From assembly GCF_022810765.1 (NCBI RefSeq), contig NZ_CP094494.1, positions 2,852,001 through 2,916,000 on the forward strand: DNA of 64,000 bases. The letters run 5' to 3'. The DNA is from Winogradskyella sp. MH6 (GTDB lineage: Bacteria; Bacteroidota; Bacteroidia; Flavobacteriales; Flavobacteriaceae). The notes under the pieces are model-generated. The model was not told the DNA's origin. It ran no database searches and saw only the letters and a program-made list of their open reading frames with translations. The first letter of the stretch is position 1. The number at the start of each line of letters is the position of its first letter. Shown here in pieces: positions 54,230-64,000 of this stretch. A program made the position numbers and the translations under genes.

Positions 54230-56650
54230 ATGATTACAAATACAGAATTAGAAAATAAAGGAAATCAGTTTCCTTCACAAATAATAGGTTTCGAGAAAGA
54301 TGTAGATAAGCTTTATTTCTCAACAGACAATGATGTTATTCTTCAATTAACTGTTGTTCGCGATAGCCTTTTAAGATTTAGATACACAACCGTAGGTACT
54401 TTTGATAACGATTTTTCTTATGCCATAACTAAATATGCGAGTATTGGTTACAACAAGCTAGAAATTGAAGAAAATGAAGATTCTTACGTAGTAATCACTT
54501 CAAAATTACGATGCGAAATTTCTAAAGAAAGCCTTCGTGTTTCTTTATACGATGTTAAAGATGACATTTTAATAAACCAAGATGAAATAGGTTTTCATTG
54601 GGAAGAAAGTTATGAGTTCGGTGGAAACATCGTAAAGATGAGTAAAGTCTCAAATGATGGTGAAAGTTATTACGGACTCGGAGATAAACCTAACCACTTA
54701 AATTTAAAGGGTAAGCGTTATGATAATTGGGTAACCGATTCTTATGCTTACGGAAAAGATACAGATCCTATTTACAAGGCTATTCCTTTTTATACAGGAC
54801 TTCATCATGGGAAAGCTTATGGTATTTTCTTTGATAATTCTTTTAGAAGTTCATTCGATTTTGCTCAAGAAAGACGGAATGTAACGAGTTTTTGGGCGCA
54901 AGGAGGTGAAATGAATTATTATTTCTTCTACGGACCAAAAATGAGTGATGTCGTAGAAAGTTATACAGATTTAACAGGAAAACCACATCATTTACCGCCT
55001 CTTTGGGCACTTGGTTTTCACCAATGTAAGTGGAGTTATTATCCTGAAAGTAAAGTAAAAGAGATAACTTCTACGTTTAGAAAACTTCAAATTCCTTGCG
55101 ATGCCATCTATTTAGATATCGACTATATGGACGGTTTCCGTTGCTTTACTTGGAATAAGGACTATTTTCCAGATCCAAAAGGTATGGTTAAGGAGTTGAA
55201 GGAACAAGGTTTTAAAACTGTAGCCATAATAGATCCAGGTATTAAGATAGACAAAGACTATTCAGTTTATAAAGAAGCATTAGAAAAAGATTATTTCTGT
55301 AAACGTGCTGATGGTCCATATATGAAAGGAAAAGTTTGGCCAGGTGAGTGTTATTTTCCAGACTTTACAAATCCTGAAGTAAGAGATTGGTGGTCTGGCT
55401 TATTTAAAGAACTCATTGAAGAGATAGGCATTAAAGGAGTTTGGAATGACATGAATGAGCCTGCTGTAATGGAAGTGCCTAATAAAACTTTTCCAGATGA
55501 TGTAAGGCATGATTACGACGGAAACCCTTGCAGCCATAGAAAAGCGCACAACATTTATGGAATGCAAATGGCTCGTGCAACATATCAAGGATTAAAGAAA
55601 TATTCATTCCCAAAACGACCATTTGTAATCACAAGAGCAGCATATTCTGGTACGCAGCGTTACACATCTACATGGACAGGAGATAACGTAGCAACTTGGG
55701 AGCATTTATGGATAGCGAATATTCAGGCACAACGTTTAGCAATGTCTGGCTTCTCATTTGCAGGAAGCGACATAGGAGGTTTTGCAGAGCAACCACAGGG
55801 AGAGTTATTTACACGTTGGATTCAATTAGGTGTTTTTCACCCATTCTTTAGAGTGCATTCATCTGGTGATCATGGAGACCAAGAACCTTGGGCTTTTGAT
55901 GAGGATGTAACAGATATTGTACGTAAGTTTATTGAGCTTAGGTATCAACTGTTACCGTATTTATATACTGCTTTTTGGAATTATGCAGATCATGGGACAC
56001 CATTGTTGAAATCTTTGGTAATGTTTGATCAAGATGATGTTCAAACCCATTACAGAACTGATGAGTTTATTTTTGGAGAACAGATTTTGGCTTGTCCTGT
56101 TTTAGAACCAAATGCAAGAGGTCGCAGAATGTATATACCTAGAGGAAACTGGTATAATTTCTGGACAGATGAAATTATAAAAGGAGGTAAAGAAATGTGG
56201 ATAGATGCAGATATAGACAGCATGCCAATTTTTATAAAAGAAGGTGCTATTATTCCAAAATTCCCAATACAACAGTATGTTGGTGAAAAAGAAATAAAAG
56301 AGATTACTCTAGATGTATATTATAAAAACGGTAAAGAAGTTAGCGAATTGTTTAGTGATGCTAATGACGGTTATGATTATACAAAAGGGCGCTATAGCTT
56401 AAGAAACTTTAGGCTTACAGGTAGGGAGAATGAGCTTATTATAAATCAATATAAAGAAGGTAAGTTTATTACAGAATACGAAACATTCAACATTCGCATT
56501 CATGGATTACCTTTTGATATTTCAGAAATTCAGATAGATAATCAAGTTATATCTTTAAAGCATTTAAAATCTAATGGTACAAACTCTTTTGTTGTAGATA
56601 AAAACTTCTCCGAACTTCATATCATGGGAATAGAAGCAAAATCTAAGTGA
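54230..56650 (+). CDS. GH31 alpha-glucosidase
   Basis: An 806-residue retaining alpha-glucosidase. It shows an N-terminal galactose-mutarotase-like domain, PPLWALGFHQCKWSYYPESKV, DAIYLDIDYMDGFRCFTWN, the nucleophile Asp in GVWNDMNEPAVMEVP, the likely acid/base Asp in TSTWTGDNVATWEHL and AGSDIGGFAEQPQGELFTRW, then a C-terminal beta domain. There is no signal peptide, so it should act in the cytoplasm, releasing glucose from maltose or glucan ends. It follows glgB by 152 bases and probably has its own promoter but belongs to the same glucan locus. Confidence 0.93.
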   Translation: MITNTELENKGNQFPSQIIGFEKDVDKLYFSTDNDVILQLTVVRDSLLRFRYTTVGTFDNDFSYAITKYASIGYNKLEIEENEDSYVVITSKLRCEISKESLRVSLYDVKDDILINQDEIGFHWEESYEFGGNIVKMSKVSNDGESYYGLGDKPNHLNLKGKRYDNWVTDSYAYGKDTDPIYKAIPFYTGLHHGKAYGIFFDNSFRSSFDFAQERRNVTSFWAQGGEMNYYFFYGPKMSDVVESYTDLTGKPHHLPPLWALGFHQCKWSYYPESKVKEITSTFRKLQIPCDAIYLDIDYMDGFRCFTWNKDYFPDPKGMVKELKEQGFKTVAIIDPGIKIDKDYSVYKEALEKDYFCKRADGPYMKGKVWPGECYFPDFTNPEVRDWWSGLFKELIEEIGIKGVWNDMNEPAVMEVPNKTFPDDVRHDYDGNPCSHRKAHNIYGMQMARATYQGLKKYSFPKRPFVITRAAYSGTQRYTSTWTGDNVATWEHLWIANIQAQRLAMSGFSFAGSDIGGFAEQPQGELFTRWIQLGVFHPFFRVHSSGDHGDQEPWAFDEDVTDIVRKFIELRYQLLPYLYTAFWNYADHGTPLLKSLVMFDQDDVQTHYRTDEFIFGEQILACPVLEPNARGRRMYIPRGNWYNFWTDEIIKGGKEMWIDADIDSMPIFIKEGAIIPKFPIQQYVGEKEIKEITLDVYYKNGKEVSELFSDANDGYDYTKGRYSLRNFRLTGRENELIINQYKEGKFITEYETFNIRIHGLPFDISEIQIDNQVISLKHLKSNGTNSFVVDKNFSELHIMGIEAKSK

Positions 56651-56728
56651 CCATCTAACAAAAGAAGTGTCTTATAATTACGAATAGATTTTCGTACATT
56701 AGTAAATACATAATTAAACCCATTAGCT

Positions 56729-57559
56729 ATGACTTTTAAAAAAGGAATATCAATATTAGGAATAGTAGCCGTTATTGTATCATGTGCTACAAATCCATTT
56801 ACAGGAAAAAAGACAATGGCATTTGTGTCTAATGACCAATTGTTTCCTTCATCTTTCGCACAATACAATCAGGTTTTAAATGAAAGTAAAATTATTACCG
56901 GAACCAAGGATGCAGAAATGATAACCAGAGTAGGTCAACGTATAGCAGTTGCTGCAGAACGTTGGTTAAATGCCAATGGACATCAAGGTTATTTAGATGA
57001 TTATAAATGGGAATATAAGCTGATAGAATCAGAGCAAGTAAATGCATGGTGTATGCCAGGTGGTAAAATAGCTTTTTACACAGGAATTCTACCAATTGCC
57101 CAAAATGAAACCGGAATAGCTGCAATTATGGGGCATGAAGTTGCACATGCTTTGGCAAATCATGGTCAACAACGTATGAGTTCTGGTATGTTACAACAGT
57201 TAGGTGGTATTGGTGTTGCTGTAGCAACAGGAAATGAAAGCCCAGAAAAACAACAGATGTGGATGCAAGCTTACGGATTAGCAAGTAACGTAGGAGGCAT
57301 GTTGCCATTCAGTAGAGCACATGAAACTGAAGCTGATAAAATAGGTGTAATTCTTATGGCAGTTGCAGGATACAATCCAGACGAGGCTGCCGAATTATGG
57401 AAGCGTATGAAGGCGAATAGTGGAGGACAAGCACCACCAGAATTTTTAAGTACACACCCAAGTAACGACTCAAGAATTAAGACTTTACAAGAGTTATCTC
57501 CAAAAGCAAAAGCGGAGGCAAAAAAGTTTGGAGTGACTTCGTTTAGACCAATAAATTAA
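56729..57559 (+). CDS. M48-family metalloprotease lipoprotein
   Basis: A 276-residue zinc protease with a lipoprotein signal (MTFKKGISILGIVAVIVSC, Cys19). The catalytic domain contains NAWCMPGGKIAFYTGIL, the zinc motif GHEVAHALANHG and the third ligand region SRAHETEADKIGVILM, then LSTHPSNDSRIKTLQEL, as in BepA/LoiP-type envelope proteases. It probably degrades or matures misfolded outer-membrane proteins on the periplasmic side. It is a single-gene unit ending with a terminator. Confidence 0.92.
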   Translation: MTFKKGISILGIVAVIVSCATNPFTGKKTMAFVSNDQLFPSSFAQYNQVLNESKIITGTKDAEMITRVGQRIAVAAERWLNANGHQGYLDDYKWEYKLIESEQVNAWCMPGGKIAFYTGILPIAQNETGIAAIMGHEVAHALANHGQQRMSSGMLQQLGGIGVAVATGNESPEKQQMWMQAYGLASNVGGMLPFSRAHETEADKIGVILMAVAGYNPDEAAELWKRMKANSGGQAPPEFLSTHPSNDSRIKTLQELSPKAKAEAKKFGVTSFRPIN

Positions 57560-57590
57560 TATTGGCTTAAAAAATAAATGATTACTTTAG

Positions 57591-57619
57591 AAGCTGCTCA
57601 AAAAGAGCAGCTTTTTTAA
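57591..57619 (+). terminator. Intrinsic terminator of the M48 protease gene
   Basis: A 9-bp stem AAGCTGCTC/GAGCAGCTT (57591-57599 and 57605-57613, loop of five A) is followed by T residues, directly upstream of the transporter gene. Confidence 0.87.
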
Positions 57620-57628
57620 TTTATATAT

Positions 57629-59002
57629 ATGGGCGAACTTAAAAAGGGAAGTAAAAAACTTCTTAATGCTTGGGCATTTTATGATTGGGCAAATTCAGTA
57701 TATACCCTTACAATAGCATCATCTATTTTTCCAATTTTTTACTCGGCATTATTTCTTTCAGAGAAAAAAGTAGTAACTGCTTTTGGCTATGATTTTAAAA
57801 GTACTGCGCTCATTACTTTTGTAACCGCATTTACGTTTTTGGTTGTAGCTTTTTTATCACCAATTTTATCTGGTATTGCAGATTATATTGGTAATAAGAA
57901 GAATTTTATGAAGTTTTTCTGCTATGTTGGTTCTGCAGGTTGTATCGGTTTGTATTGGTTTAGTTTAGATAGAATACATCTTAGTTTGTTATTCTATTTT
58001 ATGGGATTAATTGGGTATTGGGGAAGTTTGGTATACTACAACTCATATTTGCCAGATATCGCATTCGAAGAACAACAGGATAGCATAAGTGCAAAGGGTT
58101 TTAGTTTAGGGTATCTAGGAAGCGTTATTCTTTTATTGATAAATCTCGCAATGGTAATGAAACCGAGCTGGTTTGGATTTGATGTTAATATATCTACTTC
58201 AATTTTAGAAAATGGAACAGATGCAGAGATAGCTGAAGCGTTAAAAAAAGCTAAGAATATGGCTTCATTTCAAGCTATGAAAGTTTCATTTATAACGGTA
58301 GGAATCTGGTGGGCAGGATTTAGCCAGTATACATTTTATATTTTACCAAAAGGTGCTTCTTCAGGACACAAGGTTACAAAGGATGTCATATTCAATGGCT
58401 TTAAAGAATTGAAAAGTGTTTGGATAGACCTAAAAGGCAACTTAAGATTAAAACGTTATTTAAATGCCTTTTTTGTATTTAGTATGGCTGTTCAAACTAT
58501 AATGTTAGTAGCTGTCTATTTTGGTGAGGAAGAAATTAATTGGGGAAGTGATGAAGCTAAAACAACTGGCTTGATTGTAAGTATATTAGTGATTCAACTA
58601 GTTGCGATAATTGGAGCAGTGTTAACATCAAAAGCATCTTCTAAGTTTGGAAATATACCAACGTTAATTGCTGTTAATTTTATATGGATGTGTTTGTGTT
58701 TTTACGCCTATTTTATGAAAACACCTATTCAGTTTTATATAGCTGCTTCTTTGGTTGGTTTAGTAATGGGAGGTGTACAATCTTTAGCTAGGTCTACGTA
58801 TTCTAAATTTTTGCCAGAAACAGAAGATTCAACATCCTATTTCAGCTTTTACGACGTTGCAGAAAAAATAGGCATCGTTATAGGAATGCTTATTTATGGT
58901 TTTATAGATCAGATAACAGGTAGTATGCGTAATTCTATACTATTTCTTTTTGTGTTCTTTTTAATCGGAATAATTTTATTGTTAAGGGTACCTAAAAAAT
59001 AA
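57629..59002 (+). CDS. UMF1-family MFS transporter
   Basis: A 457-residue transporter with about 12 membrane helices, of the UMF1/Atg22-like branch of the major facilitator superfamily. The hallmark is the N-terminal AWAFYDWANSVYTLTIASSIFP, then SPILSGIADYIGNKKNFM between helices 2 and 3 and VGLVMGGVQSLARSTYSKFLPE in the second half. A loop with repeated Ala-Lys (EIAEALKKAKNMASF) precedes helix 7. The substrate in bacteria is unknown; eukaryotic relatives export amino acids from vacuoles. The start lies only eight bases after the previous terminator's T run. Confidence 0.9.
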   Translation: MGELKKGSKKLLNAWAFYDWANSVYTLTIASSIFPIFYSALFLSEKKVVTAFGYDFKSTALITFVTAFTFLVVAFLSPILSGIADYIGNKKNFMKFFCYVGSAGCIGLYWFSLDRIHLSLLFYFMGLIGYWGSLVYYNSYLPDIAFEEQQDSISAKGFSLGYLGSVILLLINLAMVMKPSWFGFDVNISTSILENGTDAEIAEALKKAKNMASFQAMKVSFITVGIWWAGFSQYTFYILPKGASSGHKVTKDVIFNGFKELKSVWIDLKGNLRLKRYLNAFFVFSMAVQTIMLVAVYFGEEEINWGSDEAKTTGLIVSILVIQLVAIIGAVLTSKASSKFGNIPTLIAVNFIWMCLCFYAYFMKTPIQFYIAASLVGLVMGGVQSLARSTYSKFLPETEDSTSYFSFYDVAEKIGIVIGMLIYGFIDQITGSMRNSILFLFVFFLIGIILLLRVPKK

Positions 59003-59018
59003 ATTCAAAATTAATTCT

Positions 59019-59026
59019 TAACTTTA
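59019..59026 (+). promoter_or_regulatory. Promoter-like -7 box just before the duplicated-cysteine lipoprotein
   Basis: TAACTTTA, one base off TAnnTTTG, ends seven bases before the ATG at 59034. Confidence 0.35.
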
Positions 59027-59033
59027 GCATGCT

Positions 59034-59939
59034 ATGGTTAGGAAGATTTCTATACTCGCTGTATTTGCTACACTCTTTATGGCTGTAAACTGTGATAACG
59101 AGCCTTATGAAGGTGAAATTATCTTTGAAGATACAGCTTGTCTAGAAGCTATAGAAGCTACATCTATGGCTCTTAGTAGCTTTCTTAACACTTCACAAGA
59201 AGATTACTATGAATTTTGTTTAGATTACAAGGAAGCTTTATTGAATCAGATAGAAATCTGTGGTGATGACGATGGAAGTTTGCAATTACTTGCTGATAAT
59301 TTAGATGATTGTTATAATGATGATTTATGTGCAGATGCGATGCAAGCTACTGAAATAGCTGAGAATAATTTCAATAACTATACAGAAGATACTTACCAGC
59401 AATTATGTAATCAGTATAAGGCTGCATTAGAATATCAATTAGAAGTTTGTGGTGAGAGTGCAATTTTACAATTATTACTTTCAGAATTAGGTGATTGCCA
59501 ACAAGAATTTGTTGAAACACCTGGCGACTGGATACTTGTAGGTTGGGTTACCGATAACTTAAGAGATATTGATAACGATGGTATTGTTACAAACAACTAT
59601 TTAGATGAAATAGACTGCTATAATAATGAAACCATGACATTTAATGCCGATGGAACAGGTACTATGTTTTTTAGGTCTTATGCAGACATTACTTTTACTC
59701 CTAATAATAGTGGTGAAGATTTTTTTATAAACTGTATTAGTATTAATCAAGCTTCAACTTTTGATTGGTCACAAGATGGTAACACTATTTATATTACTAA
59801 TAACGAAGGTATTACTAATCTATATTTTAGAAATGGTAATTCCATGTATGTAGCTATTGACGATGCATTCTATGCGGAAAGTACCACAGATGATTCCGTT
59901 ATAACTGAGCGTATTACCTTTATTTATATTAAACTTTAG
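59034..59939 (+). CDS. Unknown lipoprotein with two copies of a four-cysteine helical module
   Basis: A 301-residue lipoprotein (lipidated Cys20 in FMAVNC). Residues 36-93 and 99-155 are a tandem duplication: cysteines at 36/62/76/93 and 99/125/139/155, with spacing 26-14-17 and 26-14-16. Shared pattern is Cys-x-x-Ala-x-x-Ala-Thr, (Y)xxLC or (Y)xFC, YK(E/A)AL...Q(I/L)E(I/V)CG and LxDC at the end. Each module is likely a helical bundle with two disulfides. The C-terminal part (about 165-301) begins GDWILVGWVTDN and resembles a lipocalin-like beta domain. I do not know a named family for the module. Confidence 0.75.
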   Translation: MVRKISILAVFATLFMAVNCDNEPYEGEIIFEDTACLEAIEATSMALSSFLNTSQEDYYEFCLDYKEALLNQIEICGDDDGSLQLLADNLDDCYNDDLCADAMQATEIAENNFNNYTEDTYQQLCNQYKAALEYQLEVCGESAILQLLLSELGDCQQEFVETPGDWILVGWVTDNLRDIDNDGIVTNNYLDEIDCYNNETMTFNADGTGTMFFRSYADITFTPNNSGEDFFINCISINQASTFDWSQDGNTIYITNNEGITNLYFRNGNSMYVAIDDAFYAESTTDDSVITERITFIYIKL

Positions 59940-60017
59940 ATTTTTGTTACTATTCTAAGTATTTACGATATATACTTCATAAATATTCTTATATTGCCAG
60001 TAACTAAACAATATGTA

Positions 60018-60569
60018 ATGAAAAAACTATTTATTCTTTCTATTTTATTTTTAACTGTATTTTCATCTTGTAGTAGTAAAGTAGATCTAGCTATTGACAA
60101 TCCAACAGATGTCTCTGTAGAAATTGTAGTAGATACATTACGTGTATTAGTACCACCAAAAGATGTTGTTTGGGTAGAAATGGGACCAGGAGAGCATCAG
60201 TTAACTCTAGAGAATGATAGTATAATAAAATATAACTTCACTGAGTCTGTATACATGATTAACCCGTCGTTATCTGAGTATTTAGTAGCTGACGAATATT
60301 ACGGACCACCTGCTTTTCAAAATTCGTATGCTTCTACTTTACCTAACAAAGTAGTTACATTTTTAGGTATGGAGATTGAAGGTAACTACGATGTATTAAC
60401 TAATGTTATCAATAAAGTGACTTGGGATTATGGTCCAAGAGAAACATTACCAGAAATGGTAGAAGTAGATGCTGATGAATCTTACACAACATTGGTTAAA
60501 GTTTACGATCCTGCAGAATTTATGAGCTTAATGCTTAGTTCTTATAACGACTATTCAGAGGACGAATAA
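60018..60569 (+). CDS. Unknown lipoprotein
   Basis: A 183-residue lipoprotein; signal MKKLFILSILFLTVFSSC with Cys18 as the probable lipid site. The mature N-terminus (VDLAIDNPTDVSVEIVVDTLRVLVPPKDVVWVEMGPGEHQLTL, about 22-64) looks like a small beta-sandwich. An acidic tail follows (DYSEDE). No family is recognised. The ATG at 60018 is used; the frame could begin at a TTG eight codons earlier, but those residues are not part of a signal peptide. It lies 13 bases upstream of the SAM decarboxylase gene and may be co-transcribed with it. Confidence 0.65.
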   Translation: MKKLFILSILFLTVFSSCSSKVDLAIDNPTDVSVEIVVDTLRVLVPPKDVVWVEMGPGEHQLTLENDSIIKYNFTESVYMINPSLSEYLVADEYYGPPAFQNSYASTLPNKVVTFLGMEIEGNYDVLTNVINKVTWDYGPRETLPEMVEVDADESYTTLVKVYDPAEFMSLMLSSYNDYSEDE

Positions 60570-60582
60570 TTTATCATAAATC

Positions 60583-60957
60583 TTGAAAACCTCTCTCGGC
60601 ACACATATCACTTGGGATGTGTATAACTGTAATGCAGATACGCTATCATTTATACCTACTGTAAAAACAGTATTAAATGCCATAGTTGAAGAATTACAGC
60701 TCACAAAAGTCAATGAATCTTACAAACAGTTTGAGCCCATAGGTGTCACAGGTTTTATTCTCTTAGAAGAAAGCCATGTAAGTATTCATTCCTGGCCAGA
60801 ACATCAATTTGCTGCAGTAGATATTTTTTCATGCAGACCTTTTGACGCTAAGAAAATTCAAGAATTATTAATGGAGTCTTTTAGCTCAGATAAAGTTGTT
60901 ATAAAGCAGATTGAAAGGGGAGAGGCTATCTCTATTATTTCACCAGATCTTATATAA
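60583..60957 (+). CDS. speD: S-adenosylmethionine decarboxylase
   Basis: Pyruvoyl enzyme making decarboxylated SAM, the aminopropyl donor for spermidine. The 124-residue chain is the small bacterial class 1B form. Self-cleavage would occur at Glu63-Ser64 in LEESHVSIHSWPEHQFAAVDIFSC, leaving pyruvoyl at Ser64, with His69 and Cys84 as processing and catalytic residues. The start codon is TTG (no ATG fits before the conserved GTHITWDVYNC). Its 3' end overlaps the convergent ATP-grasp gene by eight bases, and a spermidine-synthase-like gene lies 1.7 kb on, so this is a polyamine locus. Confidence 0.94.
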   Translation: MKTSLGTHITWDVYNCNADTLSFIPTVKTVLNAIVEELQLTKVNESYKQFEPIGVTGFILLEESHVSIHSWPEHQFAAVDIFSCRPFDAKKIQELLMESFSSDKVVIKQIERGEAISIISPDLI

Positions 60958-62131
60958 TAAAGTGAGACATAAACTCACAATCATCAGTAATAATCTTAGA
61001 GCCTTGTGCTCTTAAGTTTATGGCAGACGCTCTCGTTGTATAGAACATTCCTAATTGATAAAAATAATTTTCTTCATCCTTGTTTAGTGGATAGAATTTT
61101 TGAAATACCATATCCTGATGTCCAAAATCACCTTTAGATGTGGCTTCAGAATTACCCATAGCTTCAATAGAAATATTTTCACCCAAGCGACCATAAACAG
61201 GCTTTTGTACATAATTGTATAAGCTAGGCTCTTTGCTCAAATACGTTTCTGCCAATATGTTATTCGGGAAGTTCTGTGTGATATAAGCCAAAAACTTTTT
61301 ATTCTGCCAAATAGCTGTATAGGGTGGATTTAAAACAACCACTTTATCGTTTAAAATTAGGTCAGAAAGCGTATGTGCTAATTCAGGTTCATCGTTAAAC
61401 ATCCAATCCCAAGGAATCATTTTAAAAAGCACATCAACATCTTCATATTCATCACCAATTTGATGAAACACACCTTCATCAGAAAAAATAACATACTCCA
61501 AGTCTGAATAAAACGGTTTATAGCCTGCTTCGTAAGCAATATCTATAATGCAGTTAACGTTTTCTTTGTCTTCAATATAACCAAAGGAAGTGCCTAAAAA
61601 CACGGGTTTGTCTTTACCTAAATAAGATTTTAGATTAGACAAAACATCTTTTATATCAAACTTTAAAGTATTAAAACTTTGTGGATTGCCTTTTAATTGT
61701 TCTAATTGAAGCGGTTGCCACAATAAAGTTTCTGGCAATGTACTGCATGTGTCTGCATTAAACTCAATAATGCGACCATAATCAGATTTTAAACCTCCAT
61801 TAATATCAAAACGACCATAAAGAAATGGATGCTTGTTCTTGTTTTTCCAGCTATGCTCAATACATTTTTGAAACGATAACGGAATACCAAGTTCACCTAA
61901 TTTATGTTCGGCTATAATTTTGTCTGTAGCGCGTTGAAATAAGTAAAACGCTTCATCAGAAATACGACGTAGTTGCTCTACCTCAGAACGGTAAATACCA
62001 AGTAATTCTTCAGAAAAATAATCTTCTTCTAAATACCAATGTAAGCGATGTGGAACGTGTTTCTTTTTAAGACGTTTTATCTCTTTAAAACGACTATCCT
62101 CCAAACGATCTAAACGACTTTCCGCTGCCAT
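60950..62131 (-). CDS. Glutathionylspermidine-synthase-like ATP-grasp ligase (YgiC/YjfC type)
   Basis: A 393-residue protein with the C-terminal synthetase fold of glutathionylspermidine synthase but no amidase domain, as in Escherichia YgiC and YjfC. Family features seen: HSWKNKNKHPFLYGRFDINGG, RIIEFNADTCSTLPETLLW, DVLFKMIPWDWMF, VLNPPYTAIWQNKKFLAYI and the nucleotide-binding KPVYGRLGENISI. It should form an amide or peptide bond from a carboxylate and an amine using ATP; real glutathionylspermidine synthesis is unproven for this branch. Start chosen at the ATG 62131 (a GTG at 62158 is possible). It overlaps the lipoprotein gene by 38 bases. Confidence 0.88.
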   Translation of the reverse strand: MAAESRLDRLEDSRFKEIKRLKKKHVPHRLHWYLEEDYFSEELLGIYRSEVEQLRRISDEAFYLFQRATDKIIAEHKLGELGIPLSFQKCIEHSWKNKNKHPFLYGRFDINGGLKSDYGRIIEFNADTCSTLPETLLWQPLQLEQLKGNPQSFNTLKFDIKDVLSNLKSYLGKDKPVFLGTSFGYIEDKENVNCIIDIAYEAGYKPFYSDLEYVIFSDEGVFHQIGDEYEDVDVLFKMIPWDWMFNDEPELAHTLSDLILNDKVVVLNPPYTAIWQNKKFLAYITQNFPNNILAETYLSKEPSLYNYVQKPVYGRLGENISIEAMGNSEATSKGDFGHQDMVFQKFYPLNKDEENYFYQLGMFYTTRASAINLRAQGSKIITDDCEFMSHFII

Positions 62132-62654
62132 ATCCTCTAGATGATTTTCCTGGTACACTAACTCTTCGAGATGTTGCAGAGCTTCTTAAATCGTTTTTTA
62201 AGCCTGTAGATTTATTATAAGCAGAAGCGTTTTTGTAGTTACTTTGGTTTGGTGTAACGTTGCGTAAACTTCTATTAAAATAAGAAGCGGCTAACGAATA
62301 GTATAGGATGCTTCTTAAACCCGAATGACGACTGTAAGACGACTCGTCATTTTTCATTTTTCTTAAAGATAATGTATCTGTTGTTCCTTCTAATGTGTGT
62401 ACAATAGCAATAGATTTATCTTTATCGTCAATTAAACGCTCATCGATGATTTTATAATCATTCCCTGGTTCTACTTCTTCAACCTCAGTGATAACACCTT
62501 GAGTAGATTCGTAAACAGTTTCTTGCTGTGCATCTTTAATGTGTGGACTTGGATCGTCGTCGCCACAACTCTGAAGTGTTAACGCAGCAGCTACAGCAGC
62601 CATAAGCGTTATTTTTTTAGTTAAAGCAAGACCAGTTATAATTTTTTTATTCAT
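62094..62654 (-). CDS. YgiB/DUF1190-like lipoprotein with Ser/Gly-rich tail ending Gly-Gly
   Basis: A 186-residue lipoprotein from the ATG at 62654: MNKKIITGLALTKKITLM, then AALTLQSCGDD with a clear lipobox. The middle (about 50-120) is polar, with SILYYSLAASYFNRSL (about 118-133). The last 40 residues are rich in Ser, Arg, Gly, Tyr and Phe and end KSSRGYGSGKSFRSFGG. In Escherichia, ygiB (DUF1190) precedes the ATP-grasp gene ygiC, and the order and 38-base coupling here are the same. I take it as the partner, possibly the substrate, of the ligase. The family call rests on layout, tail and context rather than strong identity. In-frame codons upstream of 62654 lie in a promoter-like box. Confidence 0.7.
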   Translation of the reverse strand: MNKKIITGLALTKKITLMAAVAAALTLQSCGDDDPSPHIKDAQQETVYESTQGVITEVEEVEPGNDYKIIDERLIDDKDKSIAIVHTLEGTTDTLSLRKMKNDESSYSRHSGLRSILYYSLAASYFNRSLRNVTPNQSNYKNASAYNKSTGLKNDLRSSATSRRVSVPGKSSRGYGSGKSFRSFGG

Positions 62655-62674
62655 CTTTGACAGGTTAATTTGCT

Positions 62675-62682
62675 CAAACATA
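62675..62682 (-). promoter_or_regulatory. Probable promoter -7 box for the lipoprotein-ligase operon
   Basis: On the minus strand this reads TATGTTTG, a full match to TAnnTTTG, 20 bases before the ATG at 62654. It occupies the 39-base space between the divergent lipoprotein and aminopropyltransferase genes. Confidence 0.45.
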
Positions 62683-62693
62683 ATCAATTTTTA

Positions 62694-64000
62694 ATGAATA
62701 AAAAAGCACTAATTCCATTTGCTGTATTTATTGCAGGTTTATGCTCAATCATCTACGAATTATTAATCAGTACTACTGCAACTTATTTTTTGGGAGATGG
62801 AGTAAGACAGTTTTCAATAATTATTGGTGTGTATCTATTTTCTATGGGAATAGGTGCCTTTTTGTCTAAGTTTTTTAAGGATAAACCACTGACGTTTTTT
62901 ATCAATGTTGAGTATTTACTTGGGTTTATTGGAGGCGTTTCTGTGCCACTGCTTTATATGCTATTTGTGTACGTATCTCCAATGGTTTTACAAATAAGTT
63001 GTTTGGCAATTATTTTTGTAATAGGCTTACTTACAGGTATGGAAGTGCCATTACTAACCTTTGCCTTAGAGGAGAGCAACATTAAAAACAACCTTTCTAA
63101 CGTGTTGTCCTTAGATTATATTGGTGGACTTATTGCCACCTTGATTTTTCCATTTATCATTCTTCCATTTGTTGGCTTGTACTATTCGTCGCTAATCTTC
63201 GGAATTGTAAATATTGTCTTAGGTATTCTTTTGAATTACACCTTGCTCAAAGACAAAAAACGAAACAGTATTTTTGGGTTTATAGCAGTCATTGCACTGT
63301 TGGTTTTGGTGCTATTTGGTGGTAAACTTTTAAAAGTTTGGGATCAGAAAATTTACAAGCGTCCGATTGTATTGAATGAGCAAACACCATATCAAAAAAT
63401 TGTAATGACCAAAACACAAGGGGATGTTAGGTTGTATCTAAATAGGGTAATACAATTTTCATCTGCAGATGAGCATCGTTACCATGAATCATTGGTGCAT
63501 ATTCCTTTAGCGATGCATTACAACCCAAAGCGTGTTTTAATTCTTGGAGGTGGCGAAAATTTAGCAAGTAGAGAAGTGCTAAAGCATAGTTCTGTGCAGC
63601 GTGTTGATGTTGTAGATATTGATAGTACCATGTTTTATCTGGCAAAAGAGAACAAGTATTTAAAGGACATTAACGCTGATGCTGCAATAAATGAAAAAGT
63701 AAATCTCATACCTGAAGATGCGTTTACTTATCTTTTTAATAATACTGAAAAGTACGATGTAATCATTGCAGATTTGCCAGACCCAACCAATCAGGCATTG
63801 GCAAGATTGTACAGCAAGCAGTTTTTTTTAATGGCAAAGCGAAACCTTAAAAAAGATGGTGTTTTTGTAACACAATCTGGTGAAATCTATTTCTCAAATA
63901 AAGTTTTTAGTTGTATCAACAATACCTTGGCATCAGTTTTTGAAGACGTACAACCTTATCATACCTATATACCATCATTTGGAGATTGGGGATTTATTAT
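62694..64000 (+). CDS. Membrane-embedded spermidine-synthase-like enzyme (3' end cut by window)
   Basis: The frame is open from the ATG at 62694 to the right edge (at least 435 residues). About seven membrane helices fill residues 1-225 (MNKKALIPFAVFIAGLCSIIYELL, FIIGLLTGMEVPLL-like stretch near 105-125). A soluble aminopropyltransferase domain follows: QFSSADEHRYHESLVH, VLILGGGENLASREVLKH (about 281-298), VDVVDIDSTMFYLA and VIIADLPDPTNQALARLYS (about 355-373). These correspond to SpeE motifs, though GGGDG is GGGEN here. It diverges from the lipoprotein-ligase pair and would use decarboxylated SAM from SpeD. The amine acceptor is unknown. Confidence 0.88.
   Translation, partial: MNKKALIPFAVFIAGLCSIIYELLISTTATYFLGDGVRQFSIIIGVYLFSMGIGAFLSKFFKDKPLTFFINVEYLLGFIGGVSVPLLYMLFVYVSPMVLQISCLAIIFVIGLLTGMEVPLLTFALEESNIKNNLSNVLSLDYIGGLIATLIFPFIILPFVGLYYSSLIFGIVNIVLGILLNYTLLKDKKRNSIFGFIAVIALLVLVLFGGKLLKVWDQKIYKRPIVLNEQTPYQKIVMTKTQGDVRLYLNRVIQFSSADEHRYHESLVHIPLAMHYNPKRVLILGGGENLASREVLKHSSVQRVDVVDIDSTMFYLAKENKYLKDINADAAINEKVNLIPEDAFTYLFNNTEKYDVIIADLPDPTNQALARLYSKQFFLMAKRNLKKDGVFVTQSGEIYFSNKVFSCINNTLASVFEDVQPYHTYIPSFGDWGFI

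Follow-up and report, generated by a model that had tools for sequence, protein, structure and literature searches.

What do the ATP-grasp ligases of the YgiC/YjfC type and the membrane-fused aminopropyltransferases act on in the bacterial cell? No natural target was found in the literature for either family. Here we report the analysis of a locus at which genes of both families are neighbours, at the end of a 64,000-nucleotide stretch of Winogradskyella sp. MH6 (Flavobacteriaceae; contig NZ_CP094494.1, positions 2,852,001 to 2,916,000), hereafter called the window. The cassette consists of speD, a ligase gene, a lipoprotein gene and a membrane speE, and the last residues of the neighbouring lipoprotein are a candidate target for each of the two enzymes. 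Its function was assessed by sequence comparison, from which we lean towards the reading that the unit modifies its own lipoprotein: the ligase would amidate the C-terminal carboxylate of the lipoprotein tail with a polyamine, and the membrane SpeE would make or extend the amine.

The four genes named by the first-pass annotation of this locus, namely speD, an amidase-free ligase, a Gly-Gly-tailed lipoprotein and a membrane speE, are all present according to Pfam, curated models and reading frames. The speD gene (60583..60957, plus strand, TTG start) encodes a class 1b S-adenosylmethionine (SAM) decarboxylase that matches PF02675 (E = 6.8e-32) and passes the curated model TIGR03330 (108.1 bits; cut-off 75.65). 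The gene of the GspS-type ATP-grasp ligase lies on the minus strand at 60950..62131, with ATG 62131 as the more likely start (alternative GTG 62158). The lipoprotein gene (62094..62654, minus strand) starts at ATG 62654 within a longest open reading frame (ORF) that reaches 62687, and its product has a lipobox-like LQSC site. The two genes overlap, as claimed earlier, with the ATG start by 38 nucleotides (62094..62131, minus strand), and an overlap of equal length is found at loci L104 and L105, which belong to two other genera. The membrane speE (plus strand) starts at ATG 62694 and extends 220 bases beyond the window end at 64000, to 64220. The encoded aminopropyltransferase passes the curated model PRK03612 (550.5 bits; cut-off 472) and has its SpeE domain behind seven predicted, hydrophobic membrane segments. 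All four genes occur together again at L018, L019, L020, L023, L104, L105 and L170.

The C-terminus of the lipoprotein reads GYGSGKSFRSFGG, a reading that was re-checked, and its last 13 codons (62097..62135, minus strand) would encode the end on which the ligase is proposed to act. This tail is the best-conserved stretch of the protein: in an alignment of 56 rows, mean identity to the commonest residue is 0.89 over the last 13 columns and 0.65 over the domain, and these columns rank highest among 174 alignment windows. The C-terminal Gly-Gly, whose conservation among orthologues the first-pass annotation had made a touchstone of its proposal, is shared by 100 of the 101 homologues; P0094, which lacks it, is a fragment of 124 residues. 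Because only 3 of 619 background ORFs end in GG (0 of 59 among those with a lipobox-like site), the GG end of the homologues is more than chance.

The lipoprotein was previously taken to be of the DUF1190 type, an identity that is ruled out here. A scan with a local copy of Pfam at E 0.1 gave no family for the window lipoprotein and none for five homologues, and a profile comparison (hhalign, signal and tail removed) gave its domain a probability of 0.5% against DUF1190. In the same comparison, the domain resembles the ligase-partner lipoproteins of Campylobacterota (94%) and of Cytophagales (99%); one of the profiles was built without P0088 and P0094, and the other groups were represented by samples. 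The Campylobacterota group is labelled UPF0323-type here, a name of our own. PF26303 is precomputed in the protein database for most homologues, some of which are named UPF0323 by their source. A comparison of the lipoprotein profile with solved structures gave no match. For Cj0371, a chemotaxis phenotype has been described (PMC6104132), and excerpts of that paper mention neither a tail nor a lipoprotein nor a ligase.

The ligase has the glutathionylspermidine-synthase fold without amidase that had been read from the letters. PF03738 is its only Pfam family at E 0.1 (profile positions 12–371 of 371, E = 6.8e-67), and the 402-residue protein, in which no amidase domain was detected, scores 78.6 bits on the model of the bifunctional GspS/amidase (PRK10507; cut-off 882). 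Its nearest solved relatives are YgiC (7uk8, E = 1.2e-27) and YjfC (E = 1.9e-22) of E. coli. Fourteen columns of E. coli GspS are identical across all ten ligases aligned, the window ligase among them, including R316, D318, E330, N332, D334, E391, K498, K533, R538 and R598, among which are residues that bind ATP, metal or substrate. Judged by these residues, the window ligase looks intact as an enzyme. For YgiC and YjfC, the RefSeq annotation is peptide--spermidine ligase, which is said to follow a 2023 study by Pederick. The earlier statement that no substrate is proven is narrowed by this annotation and stands for proteins: we know of no proven protein substrate for ligases of this type.

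Ligase and tailed lipoprotein co-occur, as the first-pass annotation had supposed. Among 299 Flavobacteriaceae genomes, the ligase exceeds its cut-off in 3 (four more matches lie below it), and strong lipoprotein matches are found in those same 3, with two more that are partial (E 1e-4 or worse). All three genomes also carry SpeD and a full-length membrane SpeE; in the whole set, SpeD is present in 16 genomes and full-length membrane SpeE in 15, all with SpeD. The chance that the three ligase genomes all fall within these 15 is about 1e-4 (hand calculation), or about 2e-3 without the genome of the window, whose choice preceded the count.

The association extends beyond this family. A survey of 80 ligase loci (the 80 best among at least 578 confirmed relatives), in which partner calling required a Gly/Ser-rich tail and five further-off partners (L026, L030, L033, L063, L072) were set by hand, revealed a Gly/Ser-tailed protein nearby and on the same strand at 73 loci; these partners end in GG (57), S (15) or A (1). 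Without the tail criterion, the nearest upstream ORF of at least 150 residues ends in GG at 54 of the 74 loci where such an ORF exists. For the seven loci without a near partner, all six searchable genomes (that of L032 was left out) encode a tailed relative, ending in FSS, MGG, FSS, FRG, ASS and FGG; the one at L024 is found in the same stretch, some 4 kb upstream of its ligase, the other five beyond the stretches examined. Among plasmids, 13 of the 164 records that carry a relative of YjfC and 8 of the 61 that carry one of membrane SpeE were sampled; of the 13 ligases, which come from Alpha- and Gammaproteobacteria, an Arthrobacter, a Leptolyngbya and a Virgibacillus, 11 have a tailed neighbour. 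In a Bacteroidota sample (11 of 13 loci), a tailed protein was found at 10 loci, with the ends VSS, ASS, LGS, GGG, FGG, YGG, SGG, FSL, FSS and VNG.

The tails sit on domains without detectable profile relation (hhalign), and YgiB and YjfM of E. coli also end in GG. As far as the sequences compared reach, what these proteins have in common is a Gly-aromatic, Ser/Arg-rich tail that closes with a small residue, in most cases as GG, on domains that show no relation to each other, which fits a tag read by an enzyme better than a domain partner. Many ligase–tail pairs lie in stretches without matches to the SpeD or membrane SpeE probes.

Several of these loci differ in their surroundings. L180 and L190, on a Photobacterium and an Azospirillum plasmid, encode YgiC-like ligases preceded by a tailless protein of about 650 residues, perhaps a different substrate. 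The ligases at L010, L011, L013 and L014 are divergent members of PF03738 and stand beside tailed proteins of about 460 residues or an open frame of 423 residues; a DUF350-like gene was matched beside L011.

A single chromosomal place holds the ligase cassette in the window, L104, L105 and L023, and a ligase-less cassette in L113 and L117. One flank consists of a transporter and an M48 peptidase, the other of two DUF2807-type proteins, an anti-sigma factor, a sigma factor and Lon (named by Pfam for one DUF2807 protein and by reading for the rest); in L105, the transporter comes after membrane speE, and the stretch does not extend to the sigma factor. In six of six cassette-free relatives, the flanks stand together with no cassette gene between them; Lon was not matched in the L207 stretch, and a further neighbour known from the window is preserved there in L203. 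At this slot, a genome has either all four genes or none of them, an argument for a joint function. Gene content, conservation of the tail and of the GspS residues, co-occurrence and the one shared slot are established by these data.

The slot also has features of its own. The DUF2807-type, anti-sigma, sigma and Lon genes (56729-59002; in L002, 8771-14419) are retained in relatives that lack the cassette. Directly upstream of speD (60018-60569) lies the gene of a small lipoprotein-like protein whose end is acidic; it also precedes speD in L104, L105 and L023 and is kept in the cassette-free L202 of the same genus. The divergent start codons of the lipoprotein gene and membrane speE are separated by just 39 bases (62655-62693), and because the gap is short, here and in the other cassettes, their promoters may overlap. 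A scan of positions 56000-64000 against Rfam gave no match at the gathering score. DUF350, PspA and channel genes, for which the first-pass annotation had looked to the region past base 64000, are not among the matches of phmmer probes in the next 11 kb.

New here are speD/membrane speE cassettes that have no ligase and carry a lipoprotein ending in GK. Twelve of the 15 Flavobacteriaceae genomes with a full-length membrane SpeE are without the ligase, and all 12 clusters hold a lipoprotein that ends in GG[FYT]GK. Four further clusters from other Bacteroidota likewise have a lipoprotein ending in GK (16 of 16 loci in total), and PF03738 was found in none of the 16 genomes with a GK cassette. 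The end is shared by all 120 listed homologues (of 162) of the GK lipoprotein; 4 of 619 background ORFs end in GK. An Alteromonas plasmid cassette also encodes a GK-ending lipoprotein, and 16 of 17 homologues of that protein, from the part of the candidates that was scored, end in GK (P0230 ends in GKGKGN). The GK lipoprotein domain is unrelated by profile to that of the window lipoprotein (0.3%). In a tree of membrane SpeE, the 17 GK-cassette sequences form one clade, so that a claim of several independent changes from G to K is not tenable; L172, where both ligase and tail are missing, is placed next to the sequences of the ligase cassettes.

A third cassette type accounts for 13 of 21 full-length membrane SpeE matches. 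It contains SpeD and, in the stretches read, no tailed lipoprotein nearby, with the tail reading not resolved for L162 and noisy for L168. The other members are L157–L161, L163–L167 and L169. The one member checked, L159, encodes DUF4178 and a flavin amine oxidase-like protein. In one of these genomes (G454), a ligase is encoded at another site (L193), next to a GG-tailed protein of its own.

In the membrane SpeE, residues D360, P362, D363 and P364 of the DxPDP stretch are invariant across 27 aligned rows. Mean numbers of Lys plus Arg are 1.8–2.4 in loops 0, 2, 4 and 6 and 0.2–0.4 in loops 1, 3 and 5, and this charge distribution would place the SpeE catalytic domain outside. Elsewhere in the genome, a row of genes matches the arginine decarboxylase, agmatinase and deoxyhypusine synthase families; putrescine therefore need not depend on the cassette. 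Beyond the membrane SpeE, one frame of 221 residues exceeds the cut-off of the SpeE family, with a match that spans only part of the model.

From these comparisons we infer the chemical steps of the modification together with their order, location and purpose. SpeD would provide decarboxylated SAM. The ligase would turn the C-terminal Gly-Gly carboxylate of the tail into an acyl phosphate, which would be coupled to a primary amine of a polyamine, much as GspS joins the terminal glycine of its tripeptide substrate glutathione to spermidine; the product would be a flexible Ser/Arg/Gly tail with an amine cap. With no evident signal peptide and a need for ATP, the ligase should be cytosolic and act before the tail is exported, which the gene overlap would favour and which makes the first-pass placement of the joining at the envelope doubtful. 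The membrane SpeE would serve local polyamine synthesis or, as we prefer, lengthen the tail-bound amine. In the ligase-less sister cassettes, the amine would come from the lysine encoded at the C-terminus (GGFGK) in place of the ligase, and an aminopropyl group on this lysine would yield nearly the same structure as a triamine-amidated tail. An amine on both tail types would account for the presence of SpeD and membrane SpeE alongside either of them. The purpose may be a cationic lipoprotein tail that acts on the envelope.

Several observations weigh against modification of the tail as proposed. The lipoprotein is predicted to be exported, whereas the ligase needs ATP. The estimated topology puts the SpeE catalytic domain outside, away from decarboxylated SAM; there it should face the tail but lack this substrate, unless the membrane part transports decarboxylated SAM or the estimate is wrong, and the membrane SpeE step is the weakest part of the proposed mechanism. 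The Gly-Gly end is not strict: 16 of the 73 partners end in S or A, and among the ten tailed neighbours of the Bacteroidota sample, whose loci are more divergent, only four end in GG and one (L011) in L, which rules out a strict Gly-Gly rule. The ligases of L180 and L190 (plasmid) and L012 (Bacteroidota) have no tailed neighbour. The difference between GG and GK ends may reflect few evolutionary events, given the single clade of GK membrane SpeE.

Three other explanations were weighed. The ligase could make a small peptide–polyamine metabolite, with the lipoprotein as a separate sensor or binder whose tail is kept for a different purpose, for example binding the membrane, the cell wall or a partner. 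GspS itself uses a tripeptide, YgiC and YjfC work on peptides in vitro according to their annotation, Ser/Arg/Gly-rich tails could bind anionic surfaces, and the three ligases without tailed neighbour (L012, L180, L190) are in line with a metabolite. We nevertheless regard it as unlikely, as small-ended tails recur beside the ligase on profile-unrelated domains and a tailed protein is encoded even in the six searchable genomes whose ligase has no near partner.

Alternatively, the cassette could be mainly a polyamine pathway in which putrescine is converted to free spermidine through SpeD and membrane SpeE, with the ligase and the lipoprotein serving to store, sense or export the product. The separate operon of arginine decarboxylase-, agmatinase- and deoxyhypusine synthase-like genes can supply putrescine, and the membrane SpeE retains a SpeE-type active-site stretch. 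This explanation appears improbable in view of the many ligase–tail pairs without SpeD or membrane SpeE matches in the stretch and of a passage in PMC12803844, citing Li 2019, by which bacterial membrane–aminopropyltransferase fusions were shown to be uninvolved in spermidine/spermine synthesis; aminopropylation of the tail would fit that passage. The same ligase loci without SpeD and membrane SpeE could instead point to a ligase that attaches something other than a polyamine to the tail, such as an amino acid or amino sugar, and ATP-grasp ligases use many amines. Set against the annotation of the close relatives YgiC and YjfC as spermidine ligases and the presence of SpeD and membrane SpeE in the same cassette here, this is the least probable of the three, by a little.

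Known systems share parts of the proposed scheme. The E. coli pairs ygiB-ygiC and yjfM-yjfC encode ligases of the same family (7uk8, 7uk6), and YgiB and YjfM resemble the window lipoprotein in their lipobox-like site and Ser/Arg/Gly tail ending in GG. They differ in their DUF1190 domain, which is unrelated by profile, and in that speD and membrane speE are not their neighbours; yjfC sits with DUF350 and PspA genes, both of which are missing from the window cassette. The UPF0323-type lipoproteins of Campylobacterota have a probably related domain (the 94% above) and, as tailed partners, stand beside a ligase, but in stretches without a SpeD or membrane SpeE probe match. GspSA (gss) belongs to the same synthetase fold family, with the 14 identical columns, and differs from the window ligase by its amidase; on the NCBIfam equivalog model of GspSA, the window ligase stays far below the cut-off.

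The operons of 7TM-SpeE with DUF350, DUF4178 and a lipoprotein that are described in part of PMC11237479 likewise combine SpeD, membrane SpeE and a tailed lipoprotein, and in two genomes this operon type occupies the chromosomal slot of the window cassette. Unlike the window, they have no ligase, a GK end, an unrelated lipoprotein domain (0.3%) and extra channel and DUF4178 genes. The same source also contains neighbourhoods of an ATP-grasp ligase with DUF1190 and suggests aminopropylation of other substrates; its relevant passages do not mention tails. The nearest precedent for the chemistry is the amidation of SUMO and ubiquitin in eukaryotes, where, according to sections of PMC12270671, spermidine is joined in an ATP-dependent manner to the C-terminal Gly-Gly carboxylate, as proposed here, albeit by E1 and E2 enzymes and not by an ATP-grasp ligase; the mass shift given there for spermidine on Gly is +127.147. 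A polyamine on the C-terminus of such lipoproteins was not found in the open-access literature, which is weak evidence of absence, and a substrate may have been put forward before, in Pederick 2023 or Li 2019.

The first-pass reading is thus partly supported; the ligase-less GK cassettes and the shared slot add to it, and its assignment of the lipoprotein family is corrected. A wider generalisation is possible, and we offer it tentatively: bacteria may possess polyamine-capped C-terminal tags made by two routes, in which a -GG or small end is capped by YgiC/YjfC-type ligases (YgiB and YjfM included) and a -GK lysine is extended by membrane SpeE. The lipoproteins would then be the missing substrates of both enzyme families, in versions that replace each other at one slot. 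If the proposed modification is true, it would be a new C-terminal protein modification in bacteria that ties polyamines to the cell envelope, and it would explain why the genes of the cassette travel together.

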